Assembly: GCF_014193695.1 (NCBI RefSeq)
Contig: NZ_JACHZR010000002.1
Location: forward strand, 868,001-932,000
Reading direction: 5' to 3'
DNA length: 64,000 bases
Source: Rhizobium sp. BK316
Lineage (GTDB): Bacteria > Pseudomonadota > Alphaproteobacteria > Rhizobiales > Rhizobiaceae
Shown: positions 49,709 through 60,507 of the stretch, piece after piece
Position numbering within the stretch: the first letter of the stretch is position 1
Layout of the letters: each line of letters opens with the position of its first letter
Notes under the pieces: model-generated
The model's database searches: none
What the model was told of the DNA's origin: nothing
The model's input: only the letters and a program-made list of their open reading frames with translations
Position numbers and translations under genes: made by a program

Positions 49709-50119
49709 TTACTTCTGAGCCGGTGCCAGGAATTCGGCGCAATAGGACGGTCCGTCCACGCCGGGGATATCGTTGACGGTGCGGATGTCGCGGATCGTGT
49801 AGTCGGAATTGGTGGTGATTTCGGCCTGGCAGCGCAGGTAGAGCGTGCGGGCGCTCGCAATCTGCTTGCCGCGCTTACCGTCAGCACCTTCGGCATATTT
49901 CGCGGGAACGCGCACCGTCTTGTAACCGCCCTTCCAGGTGTAGATCGTCGAAGAGCCTTCGTCGCGGTCGCTGAGCGGCGGGCCGTAGGCGGCAAAGAAC
50001 TTGCCGGCCGACTGGCCGACCCAGCGTGCCTCGATCGGGTTGCCGGGAGTAGGTATGGTGGTGCATCCGGCAAGCGCAATCGCAAGCGCGGCGGCCCCGG
50101 TCATGGTGCGGAATTTCAT
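49709..50119 (-). CDS. Putative lipoprotein of unknown function
   Basis: 136 residues. Signal peptide with lipobox: MKFRTMTGAAALAIALAGCTTIPTP. The mature part contains WVGQSAGKFFAAYGPPLSDRDEGSSTIYTWKGGYKTVRVPAKYAEGADGKRGKQIASARTLYLRCQAEITTNSDYTIRDI. Two further cysteines could pair. I do not recognise a named family. A good terminator follows it. Confidence 0.75.
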   Translation of the reverse strand: MKFRTMTGAAALAIALAGCTTIPTPGNPIEARWVGQSAGKFFAAYGPPLSDRDEGSSTIYTWKGGYKTVRVPAKYAEGADGKRGKQIASARTLYLRCQAEITTNSDYTIRDIRTVNDIPGVDGPSYCAEFLAPAQK

Positions 50120-50380
50120 CGTGTCGTCCCTGATATCTAGCCAGTGGCTGCGAAGCCGCCTTCACGACGGTTTCGCCTGTCCCGCCAAGCCCTTTAGCGC
50201 GTAACCCGGCAAAAGAAAATTGCCACTTGGCCGCTTCTGAGGAATTTGCCGCGGGTGTGGCTTTTTGCTGCACGGCCGGCTGAAGGGGTTTGTCACGAGC
50301 CTGTCAAAAATTCCCGCGGCTTTTTGAATTTTGGTGCTTGCACAACATGATAGGCCGGTCTATAGAGGCGCCGCTGGTCA

Positions 50381-50457
50381 CGGAGTGTAGCGCAGTCTGG
50401 TAGCGCACCACGTTCGGGACGTGGGGGTCGAGTGTTCGAATCACTCCACTCCGACCA
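50381..50457 (+). tRNA. tRNA-Pro (CGG)
   Basis: CGGAGTG pairs with CACTCCG; anticodon stem CCACG/CGTGG with loop TTCGGGA gives anticodon CGG; T-arm GTTCGAATC; encoded CCA at 50455-50457. It forms the left end of an accessory region and is the likely integration target. Confidence 0.97.
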
Positions 50458-50460
50458 GCT

Positions 50461-50485
50461 AAAACCCTTGGCCTATAAGGGTTTT
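50461..50485 (+). terminator. Terminator after tRNA-Pro
   Basis: AAAACCCTT-GGCCTAT-AAGGGTTTT is a nine-base-pair hairpin flanked by A and T runs, three bases after the tRNA. It can work in both directions. Confidence 0.8.
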
Positions 50486-50528
50486 CATTCCCGAACAGAT
50501 TTCTTCAACAAACCCAAATCAATATAAG

Positions 50529-50552
50529 CGGACCGATTGCTTCGGCGGACCG
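50529..50552 (+). repeat. CGGACCG heptamer repeats, left cluster
   Basis: CGGACCG occurs at 50529-50535 and 50546-50552, just beyond the decayed integrase stop. The 12-mer CGGACCGATTGC (50529-50540) recurs exactly at 52165-52176. These may be remnants of attachment or arm sites of an integrated element. Confidence 0.5.
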
Positions 50553-50553
50553 G

Positions 50554-50705
50554 TTAAAATGCATTGGCCGCTTGCTGCTGGAAGTTCGGACTTGCATGGG
50601 CGCAGGTGCTCGAACTCCTCAGCCGTCATGCCGAGAGATGTCGCTGCTTGCTCTGTATCAACGCCTGCCTGAGCCAGCCAGGTTGCACCTGCGCACCTTA
50701 TTCGT
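50554..50705 (-). pseudogene. Remnant A of a tyrosine recombinase (integrase C-terminus)
   Basis: On the minus strand IRCAGATWLAQAGVDTEQAA, then TSLGMTAEEFEHL, matches the region after the RHTGAT-W box of phage-type integrases. The reading then leaves frame; a shift gives AHASPNFQQQAANAF and a stop at 50554. The expected E-R-I-Y-A-H with its catalytic tyrosine is lost at the frameshift. No upstream portion remains. It is a dead fragment, evidence of past integration at tRNA-Pro. Confidence 0.75.
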
Positions 50706-51683
50706 CTAAACTGTGAGCGGATGCGCTGTCCGCCCGAGCGCATGGTCGCTCCCGTTAAACACGATCAACTGCGGGTTCGTTATTTTTGTAATATCGATTT
50801 TAGGGACATAGAACGTCTTGAAGTTCGGATTGAGCATTGAAATCCTAAACAGCTCATTGAACTGCGTTCCAATCGTGCCACGGTTTTCAATCAACCGATA
50901 GGGACCAAATCTCGCGCAGAATAGCGCCACATTGGCTGCGACCGCTTCAATACAATGCTGCAGCGTCGCGTCGGCGAAGTGATTTTTCTTGTCGTGTTTC
51001 GTTTTGTTATATGCGTCATACCAAGGGAGCGACTGGGTTGTTGCAGGCGTTGACCAACCACGGAATGGGGCGACTGCAGCAACATTTGCGTAAGTCGGCA
51101 TCCCAACCTCGAATTCGGCAAGATGCAGGGGTGCCTTTAGACGGAAATAGTCCTTGGTCTTGAGGATAGCTTGCGTAACGCCGGCCGAGCGGAGCATCTG
51201 GCTCCATTGATCTTCAACCTCGGTGCATGCCAGTATCAACAACTCTCTGGTGCGATGACCGTACGAGGCCAACCCTTGGGTTGAGGGCTCAATAAAGTTC
51301 AGTACCTCGTTTAATCGATGGAAAAGCAAGAGAAGACTTCTCTCCGTCTGCTGAATTTCATGCATCGACAGATTGAGTGCTTGAAGGATGTCGACCTCGT
51401 AATAGAGGCCAGGTCGCCACACTTTATCTATCACTTCGCCTTCGGCCAACCTTGCCGTTTCAATCCCCTGAGCGCCAAACCGCTGTACGACCCAGCTTTG
51501 AAGCGACGAGCCTGATTTGGCCTCGGTAACAGTTAAGCCAGGTGAAATCGTGTATACGCCGTCGCCACCGCCGTACTGATGTACAAAATGAGTACTGGTT
51601 TCGTACGCTATACCACGCGGCGTTTTGCTGAAAAAATTCCAGTTGGGGGGATCAGCGGTACATTGGTAGACGATAACAGCCAC
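50706..51683 (-). CDS. Hypothetical protein with YNxxKHD motif, possible HEPN-like
   Basis: 325 residues from a GTG start, with AGAGGATTTT upstream. The N-terminal part (VYQCTADPPNWNFFSKTPRG, YGGGDGVYTISPGLTVTEA) is unfamiliar. The C-terminal half has LPWYDAYNKTKHDKKNHFADATLQHCIEAVAANVALF. This N-x-x-K-H-D stretch in a helical context recalls HEPN-type proteins in defence loci, but lacks a definite R-x4-6-H. I do not recognise a family. Codon use is AT-richer than the flanks. It ends where the integrase remnant begins, so it is likely cargo. Confidence 0.6.
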   Translation of the reverse strand: MAVIVYQCTADPPNWNFFSKTPRGIAYETSTHFVHQYGGGDGVYTISPGLTVTEAKSGSSLQSWVVQRFGAQGIETARLAEGEVIDKVWRPGLYYEVDILQALNLSMHEIQQTERSLLLLFHRLNEVLNFIEPSTQGLASYGHRTRELLILACTEVEDQWSQMLRSAGVTQAILKTKDYFRLKAPLHLAEFEVGMPTYANVAAVAPFRGWSTPATTQSLPWYDAYNKTKHDKKNHFADATLQHCIEAVAANVALFCARFGPYRLIENRGTIGTQFNELFRISMLNPNFKTFYVPKIDITKITNPQLIVFNGSDHALGRTAHPLTV

Positions 51684-51771
51684 TTAGAAAATCCTCTGCT
51701 TTGAATTTACGAATTACACACCTCGGTGTGCTGAAAGGCATTATCTGCAGTAATTCGAAAGTCTTCTACCA

Positions 51772-52077
51772 ATGGTATACATTGATTTCATAATTAATCA
51801 CGCAGCAGGAATCTTGGTGCTCGTGTTATCAGCGATCGCGGCCAAGTGGCTTTATGATAAGGCTGAAAAAATGAGGGGCCGCCTTAGTGCTACTGGGTTC
51901 CCACGCGATGATGGTTTCGTTAGACAGGACGCGGAGATGCCGCGCAGATATTGGAAGGACTGCCTTCCGGTATGTGCCGTCTATTTCCTGGCAATCGTCA
52001 GCGGCTGCCTGTTCATCTATATGCTCTGGTACCTCTATCCTTTCTTTCCCAAGTCAACAATCGCCGGGTCTTTCTAG
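51772..52077 (+). CDS. Hypothetical two-helix membrane protein
   Basis: 101 residues with two membrane segments: IINHAAGILVLVLSAIAAKWL near the start and CLPVCAVYFLAIVSGCLFIYMLWYLYPFF near the end, joined by a basic loop. No good ribosome site is seen and no family is recognised. It is divergent from the 325-residue gene, in an AT-rich gap; it may be cargo of the same element. Confidence 0.45.
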   Translation: MVYIDFIINHAAGILVLVLSAIAAKWLYDKAEKMRGRLSATGFPRDDGFVRQDAEMPRRYWKDCLPVCAVYFLAIVSGCLFIYMLWYLYPFFPKSTIAGSF

Positions 52078-52164
52078 ACTTCACGCGGATTTGTCGGGGC
52101 CAAGCTCCTTGATCGTCGTTCCACGTTTTCGATGCTTCGGACGACGGCTTTGAAACGAGATCGA

Positions 52165-52199
52165 CGGACCGATTGCGGACCGTTTGAAATAGCGGACCG
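52165..52199 (+). repeat. CGGACCG heptamer repeats, right cluster
   Basis: CGGACCG at 52165-52171, 52176-52182 and 52193-52199 precede the second integrase remnant (plus-strand order), matching the left cluster. The spacing is irregular. Confidence 0.5.
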
Positions 52200-52200
52200 C

Positions 52201-52341
52201 TCAGAAGGGGTTCGCTGCCGCCTGCTGGAAGTCCGGGCTTGCACGCGCATAGATCCGTTCAAACTCTTCCGCCGTCGTCCACAATGCTGCTGCCGCCTGC
52301 TCGGTTTCAACACTGGCCTAGGCGAGCCATCTGGCTCGTGT
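52201..52341 (-). pseudogene. Remnant B of a tyrosine recombinase (integrase C-terminus)
   Basis: The minus strand reads GRHTRARWLA, a stop codon (TAG where CAG is expected), then ASVETEQAAAALWTTAEEFERIYARASPDFQQAAANPF and a natural stop. It keeps the RHT box and the catalytic tyrosine in ERIYAR, but has the nonsense codon and several substitutions. The rest of the gene is missing. It lies in the same orientation as remnant A. Confidence 0.78.
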
Positions 52342-52534
52342 ATGGCGCCCATTAGCGCTTCCCCTTCTGTTGCATTTTGGCTGCGCGCTATGAGAGCATA
52401 TTGCTGAGTCGGGAGGAAGATGGGTGCGTTTCAAGAAAATGCGTGACAACAAGTACTTCCATACCTGCGATCTGCCTTTTCTGCATTTGCGAAATACCTG
52501 AATGATCTGACAAAAGAGGATGATTTGAATAACC
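52342..52534. other. Unassigned AT-rich spacer in the accessory region
   Basis: Sequence between integrase remnant B and the 249-residue gene. It has no ORF or repeat I can support; it presumably holds the promoter of that gene. AAGAGGATGA lies just before its ATG. Confidence 0.4.
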
Positions 52535-53284
52535 ATGACGACCGACAGAGCCGAGCGGCTTCACTTACTGATTGAAAATATCAGGGAAATTTTAGCGAAG
52601 CGGAATCAAGGCCAAGAATTATTCCATAATCTTGCTGCCTTAGCAGCAGGTACGGGTTCCGAAAATTATGCTTCATTTCATTTCCAATATCAGTCGTTGT
52701 GCGGAGCCCTGCGCCGTGATGTAGAAGCGGTGCCTTTAAAGAAGGAAAGCGTAAGGGAGCACTGGCTAAGTTGCGTTGAAGCTCTCTCGTTAACATTTGA
52801 TGTGAAAAATTTGCTCACCAGAACCGACCAGGTGCTGGGTAATCATTATACAGCTACGAACCTCCAAGCCCTTGATGCTATGTCCGAGCGTTTGCAGGCT
52901 GTGGAACTCTACGAAACACCAAATGATGAACTCGAAACAGCATTAAATGCAATTCACGAAGCAATCCGGGAGATGTTGAAAGCTGGCCAGCTTGACCGGC
53001 GTGTAGCGAATGTACTCGAACATTACCTTATTCAAATCGAGACGGTGTATCGGTCGAGTGCAGCGTTCGGTGATGAGCTGTTTTGGAAAACTTACAAAGA
53101 GATATTCGGGATGTTTATCCAAACCCATCCCTTGATCGCAAAGCTTGAAAACAAAGAAGTCATTTTTGCAAAGATAAAAATCGCTGCCGGTAAGCTTTCT
53201 TCTTCCACGATTTCGGGAGTTTCATTCCTGGCAAATTTAGGTACGGCCGCAACTATATTTCTTCCTTTGCTCGCCAGCAAATGA
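52535..53284 (+). CDS. Hypothetical helical protein with hydrophobic C-terminus
   Basis: 249 residues, mostly helical: RAERLHLLIENIREILAKRNQGQELFHNLAALAAG, NELETALNAIHEAIREMLKAGQLDRRVANVLEHYLIQIETVYR, ending in STISGVSFLANLGTAATIFLPLLASK, a possible membrane-inserting helix. Codon use is clearly AT-rich for this genome. It is not recognised. Its position in a tRNA-linked island suggests cargo; a membrane-active effector is one idea without direct support. Confidence 0.6.
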   Translation: MTTDRAERLHLLIENIREILAKRNQGQELFHNLAALAAGTGSENYASFHFQYQSLCGALRRDVEAVPLKKESVREHWLSCVEALSLTFDVKNLLTRTDQVLGNHYTATNLQALDAMSERLQAVELYETPNDELETALNAIHEAIREMLKAGQLDRRVANVLEHYLIQIETVYRSSAAFGDELFWKTYKEIFGMFIQTHPLIAKLENKEVIFAKIKIAAGKLSSSTISGVSFLANLGTAATIFLPLLASK

Positions 53285-53329
53285 TGCAGCTCATCGAAAA
53301 TCACAATTGAGAAAAATCCGGGGCATCGA

Positions 53330-53467
53330 TCATCCGTCTATTTCTTCTCGAGCTTCCAGCGGAGTCTTCTGAGCGGCGAGTTCACAAAGGGCTTGGTTGG
53401 TCAAATGCGTCAGGTTGACGTGAATGAGTTCGCCTGCGGACTTCTCCGAACCGATTTGAACAAGCAA
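53330..53467 (-). CDS. Possible 45-residue small protein
   Basis: A TTG-initiated frame LLVQIGSEKSAGELIHVNLTH and on to LEAREEIDG has codon usage like a real gene but no clear ribosome site. It could be a small gene or the tail of a decayed one. Confidence 0.28.
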   Translation of the reverse strand: MLVQIGSEKSAGELIHVNLTHLTNQALCELAAQKTPLEAREEIDG

Positions 53468-53539
53468 AACTCTAAATTTTAGACATTGCTAACGAACAAA
53501 TAGCCGCTAAGCTAGTTTCCCTCGGAGGAGGAAGCGTCA

Positions 53540-53725
53540 ATGAAGCAGATGAACAATCGCCAAGTCCGGATTCCCGGCCCGAAAGATCAGGATATCGCTG
53601 AACATTGCCGAAAATTCGGGATAGGCCCGGCCGAGGAGAAGAAGCTGAAGAAGCTCCTGGGCCATCGGGCACCACTCCACGAGATCCAGGCAAACGCGTC
53701 CACGCCTCAGCCGAAGTGGCGCTAG
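53540..53725 (+). CDS. Small basic hypothetical protein (DUF3606-like)
   Basis: 61 residues: MKQMNNRQVRIPGPKDQDIAEHCRKFGIGPAEEKKLKKLLGHRAPLHEIQANASTPQPKWR. GGAGGAGGAAGCGTCA gives a strong ribosome site. The pattern, a helix with KFGIG then LKKLLGH, resembles DUF3606 proteins of rhizobia, though I cannot be sure. It sits at the right end of the accessory stretch. Confidence 0.6.
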   Translation: MKQMNNRQVRIPGPKDQDIAEHCRKFGIGPAEEKKLKKLLGHRAPLHEIQANASTPQPKWR

Positions 53726-54055
53726 ACCGGAAGCTGTCTTCACCTCAAGCTATGAATGATCGTTGCGCGTCGCTCTGCTCTGACGCAGCGTTTTCCCATG
53801 TCCCGGATGCTGAAATAAAAAGCCCCGCCGGTGGCTTTCGGCGGGGTAGATAGGGAAAGCTCTCCGAAAGGTGGCAGGAGAGCGTTTGCATTTCAGCAAG
53901 ACTGGAAGAATGAGGCGAGGGCACTTTTGCCGGATTCGGTACAGTTCGCTTAAAAACCCGTAATTTTTAGTGGGAAAATTTGCGATTTCGGCCTTGCGCC
54001 GTTTTTTGGCAAGGAGAGCACGCCGTCGTAACGACGCGCCGCCTTTCCGGTATCG
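53726..54055. other. Spacer at the right end of the accessory region
   Basis: 330 bases without a supported gene. It holds one terminator on the minus strand (53816-53846) and otherwise simple AT-rich sequence. Confidence 0.5.
53816..53846 (-). terminator. Terminator for the YghU-like gene
   Basis: On the minus strand CCCCGCCG-AAAGCCAC-CGGCGGGG is followed by CTTTTTATTTC. It lies about 210 bases downstream of the leftward gene at 54056. Confidence 0.75.
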
Positions 54056-54934
54056 TCACTCGGCTGCCTGCAGCTTGTCCTGCGTCTTCGTCTCGAAGTC
54101 GCTGGCGTCATGGCGTTCGTGGAGCTGGCTGGAGGGCTCGCCGCTGACGCGGTTGACCATGCGGCCGCGCTTGACGGCCGGGCGGTCGCCGATCAGGTCG
54201 GCCCAGCGCTTCATGTTCCTGTATTCCTGCACCTGCAGGAATTCGGCGGAATCACCGTACATCCAGCCCTTCACGAGGCCGCCATACCAGGGCCAGATCG
54301 CCATGTCGGCGATGGTGAACGCGTCGCCGGCGATATATTCGCTTTCGGCCAGGCGCCGGTCGAGCACGTCGAGCTGGCGCTTGGTTTCCATGGCGAAACG
54401 GTTGATCGCATATTCGATCTTCGTCGGCGCATAGGCATAGAAATGGCCGAAGCCGCCGCCGAGATAAGGCGCGCTGCCGACCTGCCAGAACAGCCAGGAG
54501 AAGCATTCGGCACGCTTGGCCGGATCGGTCGGCAGGAAGGCGCCGAATTTTTCCGCGAGATAGGTGAGGATCGCGCCGGATTCGAAGATACGCACCGGCT
54601 TTTCGCCGCTGCGGTCCATCAGCGCCGGGATCTTGGAATTCGGGTTGACCTCGACGAAGCCGCTGCCGAACTGGTCGCCATCGCCGATCCTGATCAGCCA
54701 GGCATCATATTCCGCGCCGCTGTGGCCGAGCGCCAGCAGCTCCTCCAGCATGATGGTGACTTTCACGCCATTCGGCGTTCCCAACGAATAAAGCTGCAGC
54801 GGATGGCGGCCGACTGGCAGTTCCTTGTCATGCGTCGGCCCGGCGATCGGGCGATTGATGCTGGCGAACTGGCCGCCGTTTTCCTTGTCCCAGGTCCAGA
54901 TCTTGGGGGGCGTATACTCGGACGAACTGGTCAT
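54056..54934 (-). CDS. yghU: YghU-type glutathione S-transferase (disulfide-bond oxidoreductase)
   Basis: 292 residues. PPKIWTWDKENGGQFASINRPIAGPTHDKELPVGRHPLQLYSLGTPNGVKVTIMLEELLALG is the characteristic N-terminus of YghU/YfcG-like GSTs, here with TPNG as the glutathione loop. NSKIPALMD and ESGAILTYLAEKFGAF complete the thioredoxin half, and DQWVFWQVGS-type sequence (here FSWLFWQVGSAPYLGGGFGHFYAYAP) the helical half. It reduces disulfides or peroxides with glutathione. The start at 54934 lies behind AGGAGCT. Confidence 0.9.
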   Translation of the reverse strand: MTSSSEYTPPKIWTWDKENGGQFASINRPIAGPTHDKELPVGRHPLQLYSLGTPNGVKVTIMLEELLALGHSGAEYDAWLIRIGDGDQFGSGFVEVNPNSKIPALMDRSGEKPVRIFESGAILTYLAEKFGAFLPTDPAKRAECFSWLFWQVGSAPYLGGGFGHFYAYAPTKIEYAINRFAMETKRQLDVLDRRLAESEYIAGDAFTIADMAIWPWYGGLVKGWMYGDSAEFLQVQEYRNMKRWADLIGDRPAVKRGRMVNRVSGEPSSQLHERHDASDFETKTQDKLQAAE

Positions 54935-55128
54935 ATGAGCTCCTGACAGAATAACTTCGTGCTTTACGTGAAAGGCCCAATCCTTAACGGCAATTGAGGC
55001 CCATGAACATATTGGTAGCAATGAAGTTCTTGTCATCGGGGCTGCGGCTTTTTTGTCGCCGCCGCTTTCAGTATGTCGTCCAAAGCGTGACAGCGTATCT
55101 GAAAGATCGCGGCACGCTGGGAGTTCAT

Positions 55129-55788
55129 TCAGAAGCTGAGCTTGCTCTTCTGCTGGCCGTCGGCTTCGAAATTCTCAGGCGCGAGCCATGCCTCATATCC
55201 TGCCTTCAGCTTCGGCCAGTCCCCATCGGTCATGGCAAACCAGGCGGTGTCGCGGTTGCGGCCCTTCTGCACCATATGCTGGCGGAAGATGCCCTCGAAG
55301 GAGAAGCCGAAGCGTTGTGCCGCCCGCTTCGACGGTTCGTTGAGGTTGTTGCACTTCCATTCGAAGCGCCGGTAGCCGAGCGTGTCGAAGACATAAGCGG
55401 CGCAGAGATAGAGCGCTTCGGTCGCAACCCGCGTGCGGGCGATCGAGGGTCCCCAGAGAATGTTGCCGATCTCGATGACGCCGTTCGCGGTATCGATGCG
55501 CATCAGTCCCTGCCGGCCCTCGGCCCGTCCCGTCGCCTTGTCGATGACGGCGAAGAACAGCGGATCCTCGCTTGCCACGGACCTTTCGAGCCAGGGGGTG
55601 AAGGCTGCCATATCGGCGGGTACGCTTTCGAAGAGATAGCGGAAGCGGTCTTCCGCGCCGGGCTGTTGCGCCGAGCGAAGCAGATCGGCGCCGTGCCTTG
55701 CGGCGTCCAGCGGCTCCAGGCGGGTGTAACGGCCCTCAATCGGGGCGCGGGCGGGGCGGGCGACACCCTTCCAGTTGGAGAGATCCAT
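55129..55788 (-). CDS. GNAT family N-acetyltransferase (RimL-like)
   Basis: 219 residues: YTRLEPLDAARHGADLL, LFFAVIDKATGRAEGRQGLMRID, IGNILWGPSIARTRVATEALYLCAAYVFDTLGYRRFEWKCNNLNEPSKRAAQRFGFSFEGIFRQHMVQKGRNRDTAWFAMTD. The open frame extends much further upstream but that part overlaps the divergent mocR gene and is spurious. The start at 55788 (MDLSNWKGV) or 55809 is uncertain. It is divergent from the MocR-type regulator, possibly its target. Confidence 0.82.
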   Translation of the reverse strand: MDLSNWKGVARPARAPIEGRYTRLEPLDAARHGADLLRSAQQPGAEDRFRYLFESVPADMAAFTPWLERSVASEDPLFFAVIDKATGRAEGRQGLMRIDTANGVIEIGNILWGPSIARTRVATEALYLCAAYVFDTLGYRRFEWKCNNLNEPSKRAAQRFGFSFEGIFRQHMVQKGRNRDTAWFAMTDGDWPKLKAGYEAWLAPENFEADGQQKSKLSF

Positions 55789-55816
55789 CGTCTTTATCCA
55801 TTGTTGCATCAAACCT

Positions 55817-55858
55817 GACCGGTCTTGCCTTGCAAATGGACTGGAGTAAAAGTCCAGT
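55817..55858 (+). promoter_or_regulatory. Candidate operators between the GNAT and MocR genes
   Basis: A perfect palindrome GACCGGTC (55817-55824) and an inverted repeat ACTGGA-GTAAAAG-TCCAGT (55840-55858) lie in the 99-base divergent gap. MocR-type regulators usually bind two repeats in such gaps. Confidence 0.45.
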
Positions 55859-55887
55859 TCTGACCTTTTGAGCAGACCAGTGGAAGA

Positions 55888-57315
55888 ATGACGCCGACAC
55901 CTGCATGGCTCGACCTCGATCGCGACGGAGGCGATCTCGCCGGCCAGATCTATCGAAGCCTGCGCGACCGTATCCTGCTCGGCCAGCTTCCGGCCGGTCA
56001 TAGGCTGTCGTCGACCCGCGCTTTTGCGGCGTCTCTTGGTGTTGCGCGCTCGACGGTCGTCGAGGCTTACGACCGCCTGAAATCCGAAGGATATATCGAA
56101 GCCTCCGCCGGCGCCGCGACACGGATTGCCGCCCTTGCACGGATGCGGCCCGAACGGCAGCAGGGCGACCGCGTGCCGATGAAGGAGGAAAGTCCGGAGC
56201 AGCCGCCCTACCGCGCCCTGTTCCGGCCGGGCGCGCCTGACATATCGGATTTCCCGCATGCCGTCTGGAGCCGCCATCTTGCTGCACGCAGCCGATCTCT
56301 GCGCATCCATCATCTCGGCTATGAGCATGCAACCGGTATCCGCGAACTGCGCGAAGCCATCCTTGAGCATGTCTCGGTGACGCGCGGCGTGGTCGCCGAG
56401 CCGGAGCAGGTCATGATCGTGCCCTCCACGCGCGCGGCGATCGACATGCTGGCGAGAACCATGTTGCGAAGGAGCGGGCGCAGAGCCGCATGGATGGAAG
56501 ATCCCGGCTATCCCGCCGCGCGCTTGCTGCTTGGCGATGCCGGCGCCGACGTCGTGCCGGTTCCCTGCGATGATCAGGGCATCGACGTTTCCAGGATGGA
56601 CGGCCCGCAGCCGGCGCTGATCCCAGCGCTGATCCCAGCACTGATCTATGTGACGCCATCCCATCAATATCCGACCGGCGCCACGCTGAGCCTGCCGCGC
56701 CGGCTGGCGCTGCTGGAGGCGGCGCGCCGTCACGAGAGCCTTGTCGTCGAGGATGACTACGACAGCGACTTTCAATATGGCTCGCGGCCGATCGCCGCCT
56801 TGCAGGGCATCGACAGGGCGGAGGTCGTGGCCTATGTCGGCACCTTCTCGAAGGTGCTGGCGCCCGGCCTGCGCGTCGCCTACGCGGTCGTGCCGCGCTG
56901 GCTGGTATCGGAGGCTTCCGAGGCGCTGCATCGCAGGGGTGTTGCCGTCTCCACCCATGTCCAGGCCGCCCTTGCCGATTTCATCAATGAGGGCCGTCTG
57001 CGCGCCTATTTGCGGCGCATGAACCAGCAATATGCCGAGCGCATGGCCCGGACGATCGGAATGCTGGAAAGCCACTTTGGCGGAAGGCTTTTCATTTCGG
57101 GCGGCAATGGCGGATTGCAGCTTGCGGCCTGGTTTCGCGATGAGACGGTGGATGACCGGGCGGTCGTCGCGAAGGTGAATGCATCAGGATATGGTCTGAT
57201 GCCGATGTCGGGTTTCTTTATCGGCAAATCCGCCCCCGGCATTCTCTTCGGTATCTCGCAAGCGGAAGCGGCCGCCGTTCAAAGACTGGCAGCCGATCTC
57301 AAGGCTGTGCTCTAG
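55888..57315 (+). CDS. MocR-type regulator (GntR HTH fused to aminotransferase domain)
   Basis: 475 residues. The GntR winged helix is at 20-85 (GQIYRSLRDRILLGQLPAGHRLSSTRAFAASLGVARSTVVEAYDRLKSEGYI), and the fold-I aminotransferase-like domain at 120-470. The PLP lysine is in VGTFSKVLAPGLRVAYAV. VTPSHQYPTGATLSLPRR and VEDDYDSDFQY are the usual core. Residues PALIPALIPALIYVT contain a 12-base tandem repeat, an unusual insertion. MocR proteins sense PLP, GABA, taurine or similar; the ligand is unknown. Its likely target is the divergent GNAT. Confidence 0.9.
   Translation: MTPTPAWLDLDRDGGDLAGQIYRSLRDRILLGQLPAGHRLSSTRAFAASLGVARSTVVEAYDRLKSEGYIEASAGAATRIAALARMRPERQQGDRVPMKEESPEQPPYRALFRPGAPDISDFPHAVWSRHLAARSRSLRIHHLGYEHATGIRELREAILEHVSVTRGVVAEPEQVMIVPSTRAAIDMLARTMLRRSGRRAAWMEDPGYPAARLLLGDAGADVVPVPCDDQGIDVSRMDGPQPALIPALIPALIYVTPSHQYPTGATLSLPRRLALLEAARRHESLVVEDDYDSDFQYGSRPIAALQGIDRAEVVAYVGTFSKVLAPGLRVAYAVVPRWLVSEASEALHRRGVAVSTHVQAALADFINEGRLRAYLRRMNQQYAERMARTIGMLESHFGGRLFISGGNGGLQLAAWFRDETVDDRAVVAKVNASGYGLMPMSGFFIGKSAPGILFGISQAEAAAVQRLAADLKAVL
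56614..56646 (+). repeat. Twelve-base tandem repeat inside the MocR gene
   Basis: GCGCTGATCCCA is repeated twice and then partly (GCACTGATC), encoding the ALIP-ALIP-ALIY run. As a multiple of three it keeps the frame and could expand or contract by slippage. Confidence 0.85.
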
Positions 57316-57383
57316 CCATTTGTTTTCACGCAATTCCGGACGCAAAACCGCTGCACACTTTGCTGGAATTGCTTAGAAACGCA

Positions 57384-57408
57384 TGCGCCCGGAACTGGTC
57401 CGGGCGCA
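57384..57408 (-). terminator. Hairpin downstream of the DegP gene
   Basis: TGCGCCCGGA pairs with TCCGGGCGCA around five bases, 20 bases past the protease stop (leftward). T-content afterwards is modest, so it is weak as a terminator. Confidence 0.5.
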
Positions 57409-57427
57409 GCGCTCACGTGGGTGCCCT

Positions 57428-58933
57428 TCAAGCGGCGGCGAAGGGCACGGCCACGAAGGTCTTGTTGCCGCCACGTTCGATCAGGAGCAGTACCGACTTG
57501 CGGCCGGCCTTGCCGGCATCGGCAACGGCGGTCTTGACGTCGCGGGCATCATGCACCGGCTTGTCGTTGACCGAGACGATCACATCACCGGGCTGGATGC
57601 CGGCGGCAGCGGCAGACTTGTCCGGGTTGACGTTGGCAACGACGGCACCGTTGACGCCGTGGGGCAGGTTGAGCTGCTGGCGGACATCAGGGGTCAGATC
57701 GGCAAGGCCGATGCCGAGGCTCGGCTGGCCGGCAGCCTGGCCCTGATCGTCGCTGCTCTCGACGGCGGCGGCCTGCTTCTGGGTGTCTTCATTGCCGCCG
57801 ACGGTGACGTTGAGATCGACCGTCTTGCCGTCACGCCAGACGGCCAGCGTTTCCTTGGCACCCGGCGACAGGTCGGCAACGAGGCGCGACAGGTCCTTCG
57901 GGGTCTTGACGTTTTCGCTGCCGACGGCCGTTACGATGTCACCCGTCTTGATGCCGGCATGGGCAGCAGGCGTTCCATTGGTAACGGCGGCAACCAGCGC
58001 GCCTTCGGCCTTGGAGAGGCCGACGGCATCGGCGACATCCTGGGTGACCGGCTGGATCTGCACGCCGAGATAGCCGTGATCGATCGAACCGTCCTTCTGC
58101 AGCTTGGCGACGATCGTCTTTGCTTCAGATGAAGGAATGGCGAAGCCGACGCCGACGCTGCCGCCGTTCGGCGAGTAGATGGCGGTATTGATGCCGACGA
58201 CATTGCCGTCACGATCGACCAGCGGGCCGCCGGAATTGCCGTGGTTGATCGGCGCATCGATCTGGATGAAATCGTCATAGGGGCCGCTGTGCAGGTCGCG
58301 GCCGCGGGCCGAGACGATACCGGCCGTCACCGTCGTGCCGATGCCGAACGGATTGCCGATGGCAAGGATCTGGTCGCCGAGCTTCAGCTTGTCGGAATCA
58401 CCCCAGGCGATGGTCGCAAGCGGATGCGGAGCCTGAACCTTCAGAACGGCGAGGTCGGACTTGGCATCGGCGCCAAGCAGCTTGGCCGGCAGCTCGGTGC
58501 CGTCGTCGAGCGTGACCTTGATGTCGATCGCATTGTCGATGACGTGATTGTTGGTGACGATCACACCGTCGGGGCTGATGATGAAGCCGGAGCCGAGCGC
58601 CATGGCATGCTGTGACTCGTGCTGCTGCGGCGCCTGATGCGGAAGGGGAATGCCCTGCTGTTCGAAGAACTGGCGGAACTGCTCGTCCATCGGTGAACTG
58701 TCGGCGCTGGCATTGGTGGCCTTCATCGTCGTCGTGATGGTCACGACAGCCGGCTTGTCGGCATCGACGATGGAAGCAAAGGAGCCGTTGGAGGCCAGAA
58801 TGCCGCCGGTCTCGGCCGGTGCAGCAAGAGCCGTCGAGGAGGAAGAGATGGCGAAGGGCAGGGAGGCCGCGCCGAGAACGATAGCCGCTCCGACAAGTGC
58901 TGCAGCCCGGTGCTTGCGAAGAATGTTTGACAT
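57428..58933 (-). CDS. degP: Do/DegP-family periplasmic serine protease
   Basis: 501 residues. A signal peptide (MSNILRKHRAAALVGAAIVLGAASLPFAISS) leads to a trypsin-like domain with triad His (VIVTNNHVIDNAIDI), Asp (DAKSDLAVLKV) and Ser (INHGNSGGPLVD). Two PDZ domains follow (LGVQIQPVTQDVADAVGL ... and LGIGLADLTPDVRQQLNLP ...). It degrades or refolds damaged envelope proteins. The start at 58933 is set by the signal peptide. It is divergent from the LacI gene across a 521-base AT-rich gap. Confidence 0.93.
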   Translation of the reverse strand: MSNILRKHRAAALVGAAIVLGAASLPFAISSSSTALAAPAETGGILASNGSFASIVDADKPAVVTITTTMKATNASADSSPMDEQFRQFFEQQGIPLPHQAPQQHESQHAMALGSGFIISPDGVIVTNNHVIDNAIDIKVTLDDGTELPAKLLGADAKSDLAVLKVQAPHPLATIAWGDSDKLKLGDQILAIGNPFGIGTTVTAGIVSARGRDLHSGPYDDFIQIDAPINHGNSGGPLVDRDGNVVGINTAIYSPNGGSVGVGFAIPSSEAKTIVAKLQKDGSIDHGYLGVQIQPVTQDVADAVGLSKAEGALVAAVTNGTPAAHAGIKTGDIVTAVGSENVKTPKDLSRLVADLSPGAKETLAVWRDGKTVDLNVTVGGNEDTQKQAAAVESSDDQGQAAGQPSLGIGLADLTPDVRQQLNLPHGVNGAVVANVNPDKSAAAAGIQPGDVIVSVNDKPVHDARDVKTAVADAGKAGRKSVLLLIERGGNKTFVAVPFAAA

Positions 58934-59454
58934 GGTGGAAGTCCCTTGCGAGAGCGTTGGCATCAGATGACGCTTGGTTCCATGCCATGGACCTAGGCGT
59001 CGAGGAGTATTTCCGCCAATTATTGCTGACTTTTACTTGTGTTTCACTGGTTGAAAGCGGATATTACTGTGGTCGGAAACAATTGGCGCTTAATACCTAT
59101 ATGATCCGTTCTGTGGGATTTACAAATTAAACATTGATCATGTTTATATTACGGTATCGTAAGACATTACTATAATTTAATCTTGTCTGACCCGACGTCG
59201 CCGTAGTTTCGTGAATGCTCTCCTGTTGACCGCGTCTGAAGGGCCAGAACAGTGAAACATATTTCATTTGCTGTGATCCGCCGCCCTCTCGGCTACGTAA
59301 TAAATTGAACCACTCGCGGCACTTATTTGGGATTTTTCGCGTTTCGGTTGATGCGGGAACTTAAAATGTTAGTAGACTCTAAATTATTTATTCTTCAGAA
59401 AGAAGGAGTTGCGAATCGACGGGGGCGAGGTTCGCGGCGACGTGCGGGAAAGCG
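58934..59454. other. AT-rich divergent intergenic region
   Basis: 521 bases without a supported gene. It is unusually AT-rich in the middle and holds the palindromes at 59128-59162. AGAAGGAG at 59399-59406 is not followed by a start codon in the frame of the LacI gene. Confidence 0.5.
59128..59162. promoter_or_regulatory. Tandem palindromes between degP and the LacI gene
   Basis: TAAACAT-TGATC-ATGTTTA (59128-59146) and TTACG-GTAT-CGTAA (59149-59162) are two perfect inverted repeats in the divergent promoter gap. They may be operators, for example for the LacI regulator or an envelope-stress regulator. Confidence 0.45.
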
Positions 59455-60507
59455 ATGAGGGATTCAGTGAAGCCGGGGCGGGAAAAGAAGCGCAGTTCCC
59501 ATGTAAAGTTGAGTGATGTTGCAAAGAGGGTAGGGGTCAGTCCGATCACTATCTCGCGTGCGCTTCACAACCCGGATATCGTCTCCGAAGAGCTGCGCGA
59601 GGTCATTCTGCGCACCGTCGACGAGATGGGTTACATCCCCAATCTTGCCGCCCGCGCGCTTGCCGGCCGCCACAGCGGCATCGTCGGCGTCATCACGCCG
59701 TCGCTTCATCACCCCTGCTTCACAGGCGTCATGATGGGCATCGAGGAGCGGCTGCGTGCCACGGATCTGCGGGTGCAATATGCCAACACGCTCGATGACG
59801 GCGATCAGGAGATCAGCCAGTTCAAATCCTTCCTGGCGCAGAAGCCGGCCGGCATTATCCTTATCAATGCGGAATATTATGACGGGCTCGCGCTGTTGAT
59901 CGATACGGCCGCATTTCCGGTGGCCCACGTCGCCGACCTCAGCCAACCGCCGGCAACGCTGCTCGTCGGCATGTCGCATCATGTTGCTGCTGCTGCCGCG
60001 ACCCGTTTCCTTCTGTCGAAGGGATACAAGCGAATCGGTTTCATCGGCGGGCTCGGCGATATCCGCTCGCGCCGCAGCCGAGCGGGGTATGAGGAAGCCA
60101 TGCGCCAGGCCGGTCTCGACAATCCGTCGCTGATGCATGGCGAAGACGGTTCCACCAGCATCGGTCTCGGACGGCGCCTGTTCAGCGAGCTGCTGGAGCG
60201 GGTACCGGATCTCGATGCGATCCTTGCGCAAAATGATGATCTCGCCCTTGGCGCGCTGATCGAATGCAACGAACGCGGTATCAGCGTGCCCGATGATTTC
60301 GGCATCTGCGGCTTCAACGATCTGGAATTCGCACAATTCACCTCGCCGTCTCTGACGACGGTTCATGTCCCGCGTCACGACCTCGGCCGCCGCGTCGCCG
60401 ACATGCTGTTGCGCGCCATTCGCGAAGAGCCGCCGGAAGAACACAGGGTCGATCTCGGATTCTCGATCATCGAGCGCGGTTCGACGCGCCCGGGACCGCA
60501 GCAGTAA
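59455..60507 (+). CDS. LacI-family transcriptional regulator (GntR-repressor-like)
   Basis: 350 residues. Helix-turn-helix: HVKLSDVAKRVGVSPITISRALHNPDIVSEELREVILRTVDEMGYIPNLAARALAG, followed by the periplasmic-binding-protein fold (GIVGVITPSLHHPCFTGVMMGIEERL, KRIGFIGGLGDIRSRRSRAGYEEAM, LDAILAQNDDLALGALIECNERGISVPDDFGICGFNDLEFAQF). It looks like the gluconate-repressor branch, but no sugar genes are adjacent, so the effector is unknown. A weak ribosome site (GGGAAAGC) precedes the ATG. Confidence 0.88.
   Translation: MRDSVKPGREKKRSSHVKLSDVAKRVGVSPITISRALHNPDIVSEELREVILRTVDEMGYIPNLAARALAGRHSGIVGVITPSLHHPCFTGVMMGIEERLRATDLRVQYANTLDDGDQEISQFKSFLAQKPAGIILINAEYYDGLALLIDTAAFPVAHVADLSQPPATLLVGMSHHVAAAAATRFLLSKGYKRIGFIGGLGDIRSRRSRAGYEEAMRQAGLDNPSLMHGEDGSTSIGLGRRLFSELLERVPDLDAILAQNDDLALGALIECNERGISVPDDFGICGFNDLEFAQFTSPSLTTVHVPRHDLGRRVADMLLRAIREEPPEEHRVDLGFSIIERGSTRPGPQQ

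Follow-up and report, generated by a model that had tools for sequence, protein, structure and literature searches.

The window, by which we mean the whole 64-kb stretch of DNA analysed here (G000:C2:868001-932000, in a genome of 6.36 Mb), carries an intact tRNA-Pro(CGG) gene followed by two truncated stretches that resemble the 3' end of an integrase gene, two blocks of CGGACCG repeats and three open reading frames (Table 1). The two truncated stretches, referred to as remnants A and B, lie on the minus strand with their 3' ends facing the tRNA, and the end of remnant A is found 96 bases past the tRNA gene. Their stop codons, TAA at 50554-50556 for A and TGA at 52201-52203 for B, are 1647 bases apart, in agreement with a first-pass annotation that had described two integrase ends in the same orientation at a distance of 1.65 kb.

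Table 1. Features at the tRNA-Pro(CGG) locus, in positions of the window
Feature	Position	Strand	Evidence or remark
tRNA-Pro(CGG), intact, integration target	50381..50457	+	ARAGORN; Rfam RF00005
Attachment core, the 3' half of the tRNA	50412..50457	+	46/46 to the attP core of PPF1, RHph_Y25 and 16-3
Two CGGACCG repeats, probable arm sites (50529, 50546)	50529..50552	+	Between the core and the end of remnant A
Integrase remnant A	50554..50688	-	Last ~46 codons, frameshifted; translation, comparison with intact integrases, shuffles
Open frame, 325 aa, PHROG 19461 (unknown function)	50706..51683	-	PHROGs E 1.2e-72
Open frame, 101 aa	51772..52077	+	No family above cut-off
Three CGGACCG repeats, probable arm sites (52165, 52176, 52193)	52165..52199	+	At remnant B; no core on the left
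Integrase remnant B	52201..52348	-	Final ~48 codons with an internal TAG; translation, alignment to intact integrases, shuffles
Open frame, 249 aa	52535..53284	+	No family above cut-off
Right edge of the foreign stretch	53436..53441	.	Similarity begins at 53436 (G046) and 53441 (G019)

Translation of remnant A gives ATWLAQAGVDTEQAATSLGMTAEEFE and, in a different frame, NFQQQAANAF-stop, and that of remnant B gives TRARWLA-stop-ASVETEQAAAALWTTAEEFERIYARASPDFQQAAANPF-stop in a single frame, so that the frameshift previously noted in A and the nonsense codon (TAG) noted in B are both visible. Aligned with rhizobial integrases, both fragments match a 371-aa integrase that is intact in Rhizobium sp. 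BK602 (G002) and that has been used as the query throughout. By tblastn, remnant B matches it at 73% over residues 324-371, and remnant A at 77% over residues 323-353 and 76% over residues 355-371. The corresponding scores, 49.7 bits for A and 69.3 bits for B, are far above the 20.4 bits that were at most reached by 100 dinucleotide shuffles of each, which supports the earlier description of both as C-terminal ends of the same integrase type. Compared with each other as DNA, the two remnants score 75.4 bits, against at most 24.0 bits for shuffled sequences (n=200). In a self-comparison of 50000-60000 they are alike in 67.5% of 166 columns, 50528-50691 against 52175-52340, and the likeness therefore takes in a non-coding stretch next to the stop codons. 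This non-coding part contains the CGGACCG repeat block, which lies on the tRNA side of the stop codon.

With regard to protein families, Pfam gave no match on A alone and, on B alone, only DUF7889 with an E of 0.019, which does not reach the cut-off; when the entire own genome was searched for Phage_integrase, eight matches came up elsewhere, and neither A nor B was among them. These Pfam results would be in keeping with a chance resemblance and no integrase at all, an idea that the shuffle controls, the matching repeats, the tRNA context and the intact relatives, which do match Phage_integrase, already refute and to which we give practically no credence. As judged by their translations and alignments, A and B are the C-terminal end of one type of tyrosine integrase, namely that of temperate rhizobiophages. 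A complete catalytic domain and an open frame are absent in both, only the last ~46 codons being left, and on this basis they are classed as pseudogene remnants, not as working members of the PPF1-type integrase genes. The extents first given for them need a minor correction: DNA similarity to intact genes ends near 52346-52348 in B and near 50686-50688 in A, where integrase likeness stops at about 50688 and not at 50705, and the bases 50689-50705 are not clearly integrase sequence.

The loss of similarity at nearly the same codon in A and B had at first suggested a shared cutting event. This idea was dropped after an eight-remnant alignment, which comprised A, B, the second G046 remnant, G129, G100, G029, G123 and G053 and did not include the first G046 remnant, G124 and G175, and in which the breaks fall, by eye, at about codons 243, 245, 306, 308, 317, 319, 322 and 355. 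All eight breakpoints are confined to the C-terminal third (~codons 243-355, by eye), and this could reflect either a deletion preference or simply the shorter length of older remnants.

The attachment core is present next to the integrase end at remnant A and is absent at remnant B. The best candidate within 50459-53440 agrees with the core at 22 of 46 positions, compared with 22-26 in 20 shuffles (ungapped), and nothing above chance turned up in ungapped or gapped searches of the interval separating A from B and of the right edge. An attR core is likewise absent, as no 11-base word of 50381-50475 recurs in the 64-kb window, and a search for flanking direct repeats (attL and attR) revealed nothing above shuffles in 50459-53440. 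The own genome has one second copy of the core, which lies 227 kb away and is not flanking. This copy, outside the window at G000:C2:690757-690803 (locus L052:8758-8804), is an orphan tRNA-Pro 3' half without the surrounding tRNA, with a direct repeat of TCGCCACCGATA (two copies) to its right, where arm sites would be expected. About 2.3 kb past this orphan core, a long ORF resembles, by eye, a mobilisation protein and has no PHROG match; the orphan core is possibly the attachment site of a third type of element.

The GC content drops to 49.6% in 50458-53435, and the flanking 5-kb segments have 61.5% and 62.1%. In G019, which has no island at this position, the right flank of the window comes about 95 bases after tRNA-Pro, and it is by this one genome that an insertion relative to an empty site is borne out. 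Based on these sequence comparisons, the foreign stretch is placed at about 50458-53436, a scar of about 3 kb that contains both remnants and the three ORFs. The right flank is common to only two of the 15 tRNA-bearing stretches compared (G046 and G019); the position of the edge therefore rests on two genomes, and the flank varies in the genus. G019 carries a 61-aa frame and then, within 0.9 kb, a gene matching window positions 57428-58963, which we take to be a DegP-like protease. In the window itself, the 61-aa frame and this gene are separated by 3.7 kb (53726-57427), including a GST-family gene that was not found in the compared stretches of G019 or G046. As far as these comparisons show, the right flank has gained or lost genes as well.

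Relatives of the integrase have been searched for in the genus, where 40 of the 148 genomes (own included) match the query at E 0.001 or better, many of them through weak, partial matches to other integrases. Five full-length relatives that are 58-100% identical to the query (G002, G173, G138, G018 and G112) all adjoin tRNA-Pro(CGG); among them, G112 is R. freirei PRF 81 and G138 is R. rhizogenes 17-2069-2c, both of the same genus as the window. A second core is found at the far end of four of these elements, about 40 kb downstream in G018 and about 55 kb downstream in G002, and likewise in G138 and G173. In named genomes, ten of the 12 relatives lie within 200 bases of tRNA-Pro(CGG), one has this tRNA at a distance of 1.1 kb, and the stretch around the last one contains no tRNA. 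An intact integrase of this type is missing from the own genome, in which only A and B match the query and the other encoded integrases do not.

More distant integrases adjoin the same tRNA or others. Full-length integrases in G024, G104, G142 and G129, at 34-35% to the query (tblastn), also adjoin tRNA-Pro(CGG), and the three of them that were compared with the integrase of phage 16-3 are 70-72% identical to it. The integrases of G118, G109, G047 and G128 adjoin tRNA-Val(GAC), which suggests a change of target within the integrase family; these loci (L090-L093), together with L101, a C-terminal piece in G124, all lie at tRNA-Val(GAC). Those of G003 and G170 (~26-32%) are near a tRNA-like core of 85-87%, at which no tRNA gene was found. 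In the phage collection, 27 records match the query, the best matches being PPF1 (82%), phi3LM21 (80%) and four R. etli phages (69.5%), and the integrase of 16-3 is at 34.5%. Of the phages that share the 46-base core, PPF1, RHph_Y25 and 16-3 show no mismatch and phi3LM21 agrees at 40 of 46 positions. The phage records themselves annotate a putative attP at the core in PPF1, a functional attP in 16-3 and, in the phi3LM21 record MF614628, an attachment site in tRNA-Pro(CGG). In the available part of PMC5537653, 16-3 and phi3LM21 are listed at tRNA-Pro(CGG). The available part of PMC11476347 places S. meliloti 16-3-like prophages, classed by the whole prophage and not by the integrase, at other tRNA genes; likeness to 16-3 alone therefore does not fix the target, and integrase likeness and prophage likeness need not coincide. 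As to this particular tRNA-Pro site, the portions available of PMC11476347 and PMC10460002 add nothing.

The CGGACCG repeats appear to follow the integrase. The plus strand of the 64-kb window contains seven copies, five of which are within the A and B blocks, and the reverse complement CGGTCCG occurs nine times; in PPF1, CGGACCG is found at three places to the right of the core and at two to the left. The repeats were surveyed at 38 loci, of which 35 were examined; those left out are L144, whose match ends at residue 301, and also L131 and L140, which have too little sequence past the integrase. At least two copies between core and integrase are present in 23 of the 23 loci whose integrase is at least 57% identical to that of G002, six of these having a core that agrees at only 37-40 of 46 positions, and in none of the 12 loci at 55% or less, four of which (L150, L151, L162 and L163) have no recognisable core; the 35 loci include some phages or strains twice and are not all independent. 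When the 23 sequences were shuffled in 200 rounds, no locus reached two copies. Another repeated unit (CGCACAGTTT-like) is seen by eye in seven of the 12 more distant loci. The unit differs between integrase clades: the PPF1 type carries CGGACCG, most loci of the 52-55% group a CGCACAG-like unit and 16-3 a GGCAATGATT-like one. On the left arm, CGGACCG stands at -101 and/or -90 in all six complete sites examined (G018, G002, G173, G138, PPF1 and Y25) and in neither of two internal cores (G129 and G046). Their position and their covariation with the integrase clade indicate that the CGGACCG repeats are probably arm sites of the integrase.

Several genomes present two such elements in a row. In G046, the tRNA is followed by a 16-3-type remnant (87% to the 16-3 integrase, residues 288-370) and, after 3.8 kb, by an internal core (45/46) and a PPF1-type remnant. 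In G129, an intact 16-3-type integrase next to the tRNA is followed after 17 kb by a core (46/46) and a PPF1-type remnant. The internal cores of both genomes have, by eye, 16-3-like repeats on the left and CGGACCG on the right, as is expected when one element integrates next to another. G123 has a second core about 36 kb from tRNA-Pro(CGG), followed by a remnant; this core is adjoined by an integrase 37% identical to that of 16-3, and no integrase of either type (PPF1 or 16-3) was found beside the tRNA. Tandems at tRNA-Pro(CGG), looked for among some of the genomes that match the G002 integrase in the genus search, thus occur in at least four of the 148 genomes, the window included. Single remnants at tRNA-Pro are found in G029, G100, G053 and G175.

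Since tandems occur at the same tRNA in G046, G129 and G123, successive integration is the likelier origin of the two remnants, and the stretch from tRNA-Pro(CGG) to about 53436 is best explained as a scar left by two or more PPF1/phi3LM21-type prophages, most likely integrated successively at the same tRNA, a reading to which we assign a probability of roughly 0.82. The phage integrase would recombine its attP core with the 3' half of the tRNA, to which the core is identical, and the tRNA would stay whole. Because the integrase gene would lie next to attL and read in the direction of the tRNA, the part of it left there would be the 3' end. A second phage would then use the rebuilt core, giving the order tRNA, phage A, internal core, phage B and right core. 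Subsequent deletions would take the internal and right cores, almost every phage gene and the greater part of each integrase gene, sparing the two 3' stubs with their repeats as well as three accessory ORFs. Present-day recombination at the scar is not expected.

Two arrivals have to be weighed against a tandem duplication of one element, or of its left end, within this lineage, which would make A and B decayed copies of one integrase end. The two remnants do represent the same end in the same orientation, and a tree in which they are forced to be sisters is 5 log-likelihood units worse without being rejected (AU p 0.133). However, A and B are identical in only 66.7% of the 174 columns they share, whereas A is nearest to the second G046 remnant (77.1% of 170 columns) and to PPF1 (77.0% of 174), and B to G029 (82.4% of 187) and to PPF1 (81.8% of 187). 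The distant G112 and G123 are the only sequences that resemble A less than B does (65.5% and 62.5%), and also the only ones that resemble B less than A does (57.1% and 58.2%). In the tree, which is based on about 187 columns and in which many other nodes are weak, A groups with the G046 remnant with a support of 91.3/86, and the branch uniting A and B in the constrained tree has near-zero length. Furthermore, the self-comparison finds no likeness between the A and B regions past 50691/52340. Duplication is thus unlikely, and on these alignments two separate arrivals are favoured over it, though not proven.

The earlier proposal of successive integrations at one tRNA is upheld as far as the integrase type is concerned, which is tied to tRNA-Pro(CGG). 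As B has no core and the attR core is gone, the case for a second integration at the tRNA comes from the comparison with other genomes and not from a surviving junction, and we only infer that B arrived by its own integration at tRNA-Pro. Some other element could instead have brought B in as a fragment, or prophages could have recombined with each other; the lack of a core to the left of its repeats would fit such an origin, and so would the similarity to relatives, which stops at 52160-52175, at or just before the first repeats. Against this, the five intact PPF1-type copies of the genus are all at the tRNA-Pro core, and in three other genomes the tRNA-distal remnant has kept its core. We regard this account as quite unlikely; it partly overlaps the preferred explanation, and the weights given to the alternatives do not sum to one.

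Persistence of the core and of two repeats at A, and of three open frames among which no phage structural gene is recognised, could also be understood if the stretch were a small cis-mobilisable element, with stub, repeats and core kept for an incoming phage integrase that moves the cargo. There is, however, no right core, the core of B is lost, A has one repeat fewer than B and PPF1, and the own genome lacks an intact integrase of this type, which makes such an element very improbable.

The preferred reading, successive prophages followed by decay, can be compared with known systems. The modules of PPF1, phi3LM21 and RHph_Y25 have the same integrase C-terminus in the same placement beside the core and in the same direction toward it, as well as CGGACCG repeats as in the window, and the core is identical in PPF1 and Y25. 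In contrast, the window keeps ~46 codons per integrase, one core instead of the three of a tandem and no attR, and no match to a phage structural family was found for its three scar ORFs. Phage 16-3 and its relatives share the tRNA-Pro(CGG) core (46/46) and the layout, but the 16-3 integrase is distant from the PPF1-type query (34.5%, as given above) and other repeats lie beside the core. The parts available of PMC5704250 and PMC3146451 describe tandem integration and decay at one tRNA/tmRNA site, and the decay of a resident element before the next arrival is part of their scheme. In such tandem accretion with CIME-like members, successive elements occupy one core and some are decayed, as here. 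Unlike a mobilisable tandem, the window has neither internal nor right cores and is a scar, and the attL and attR that are both kept in a CIME are not retained together. Among the open-licence literature titles and abstracts listed, none reports tandem integrase remnants at tRNA-Pro in rhizobia.

The open frames in the scar have few known relatives. For the scar ORFs, neither Pfam nor PADLOC returned a hit above cut-off, NCBIfam had no match at all, and PHROGs matched the 325-aa frame only. This frame is at 41% to a gene of Salmonella phage SEN8, which lies beside the putative cos site of that phage, and at 43% to genes on two Klebsiella plasmids; relatives occur in 11 plasmid records of several bacteria, and one in R. 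ruizarguesonis adjoins an AbiE-type toxin-antitoxin pair. Within the genus, it has partial matches only, in six of the 147 other genomes, and scans of genome_contigs and viral_contigs returned no relatives. The 249-aa frame has no relatives in the other 147 genus genomes or in the phage or plasmid collections, and no relative of either frame was found in PPF1-type phages. With no genus relative of the 249-aa frame and only partial ones of the 325-aa frame, these frames give no date for the scar. A role of these frames in phage defence is a guess. It is conceivable, if rather doubtful, that decay purges phage genes and keeps accessory ones, and that repeated integrations seed tRNA-Pro with small cargo genes, possibly for phage defence; if true, the cargo (the 325-aa PHROG 19461 protein and the 249-aa orphan) would outlast the dead integrases by a long time.

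The comparisons document that prophages have used tRNA-Pro(CGG) repeatedly as a site in this Rhizobium-type genus. The case in the window is real, well explained and ordinary: a known process, strongly eroded here, at a site already known from rhizobiophages. The variation of the repeats with the integrase clade is a small and testable by-product, and clade-linked repeats could serve to sort att sites without recourse to the integrase gene. Moreover, a double integration can be recognised after near-total loss of the elements from the 3' end of the integrase and its clade-specific repeats, even where the core is gone.
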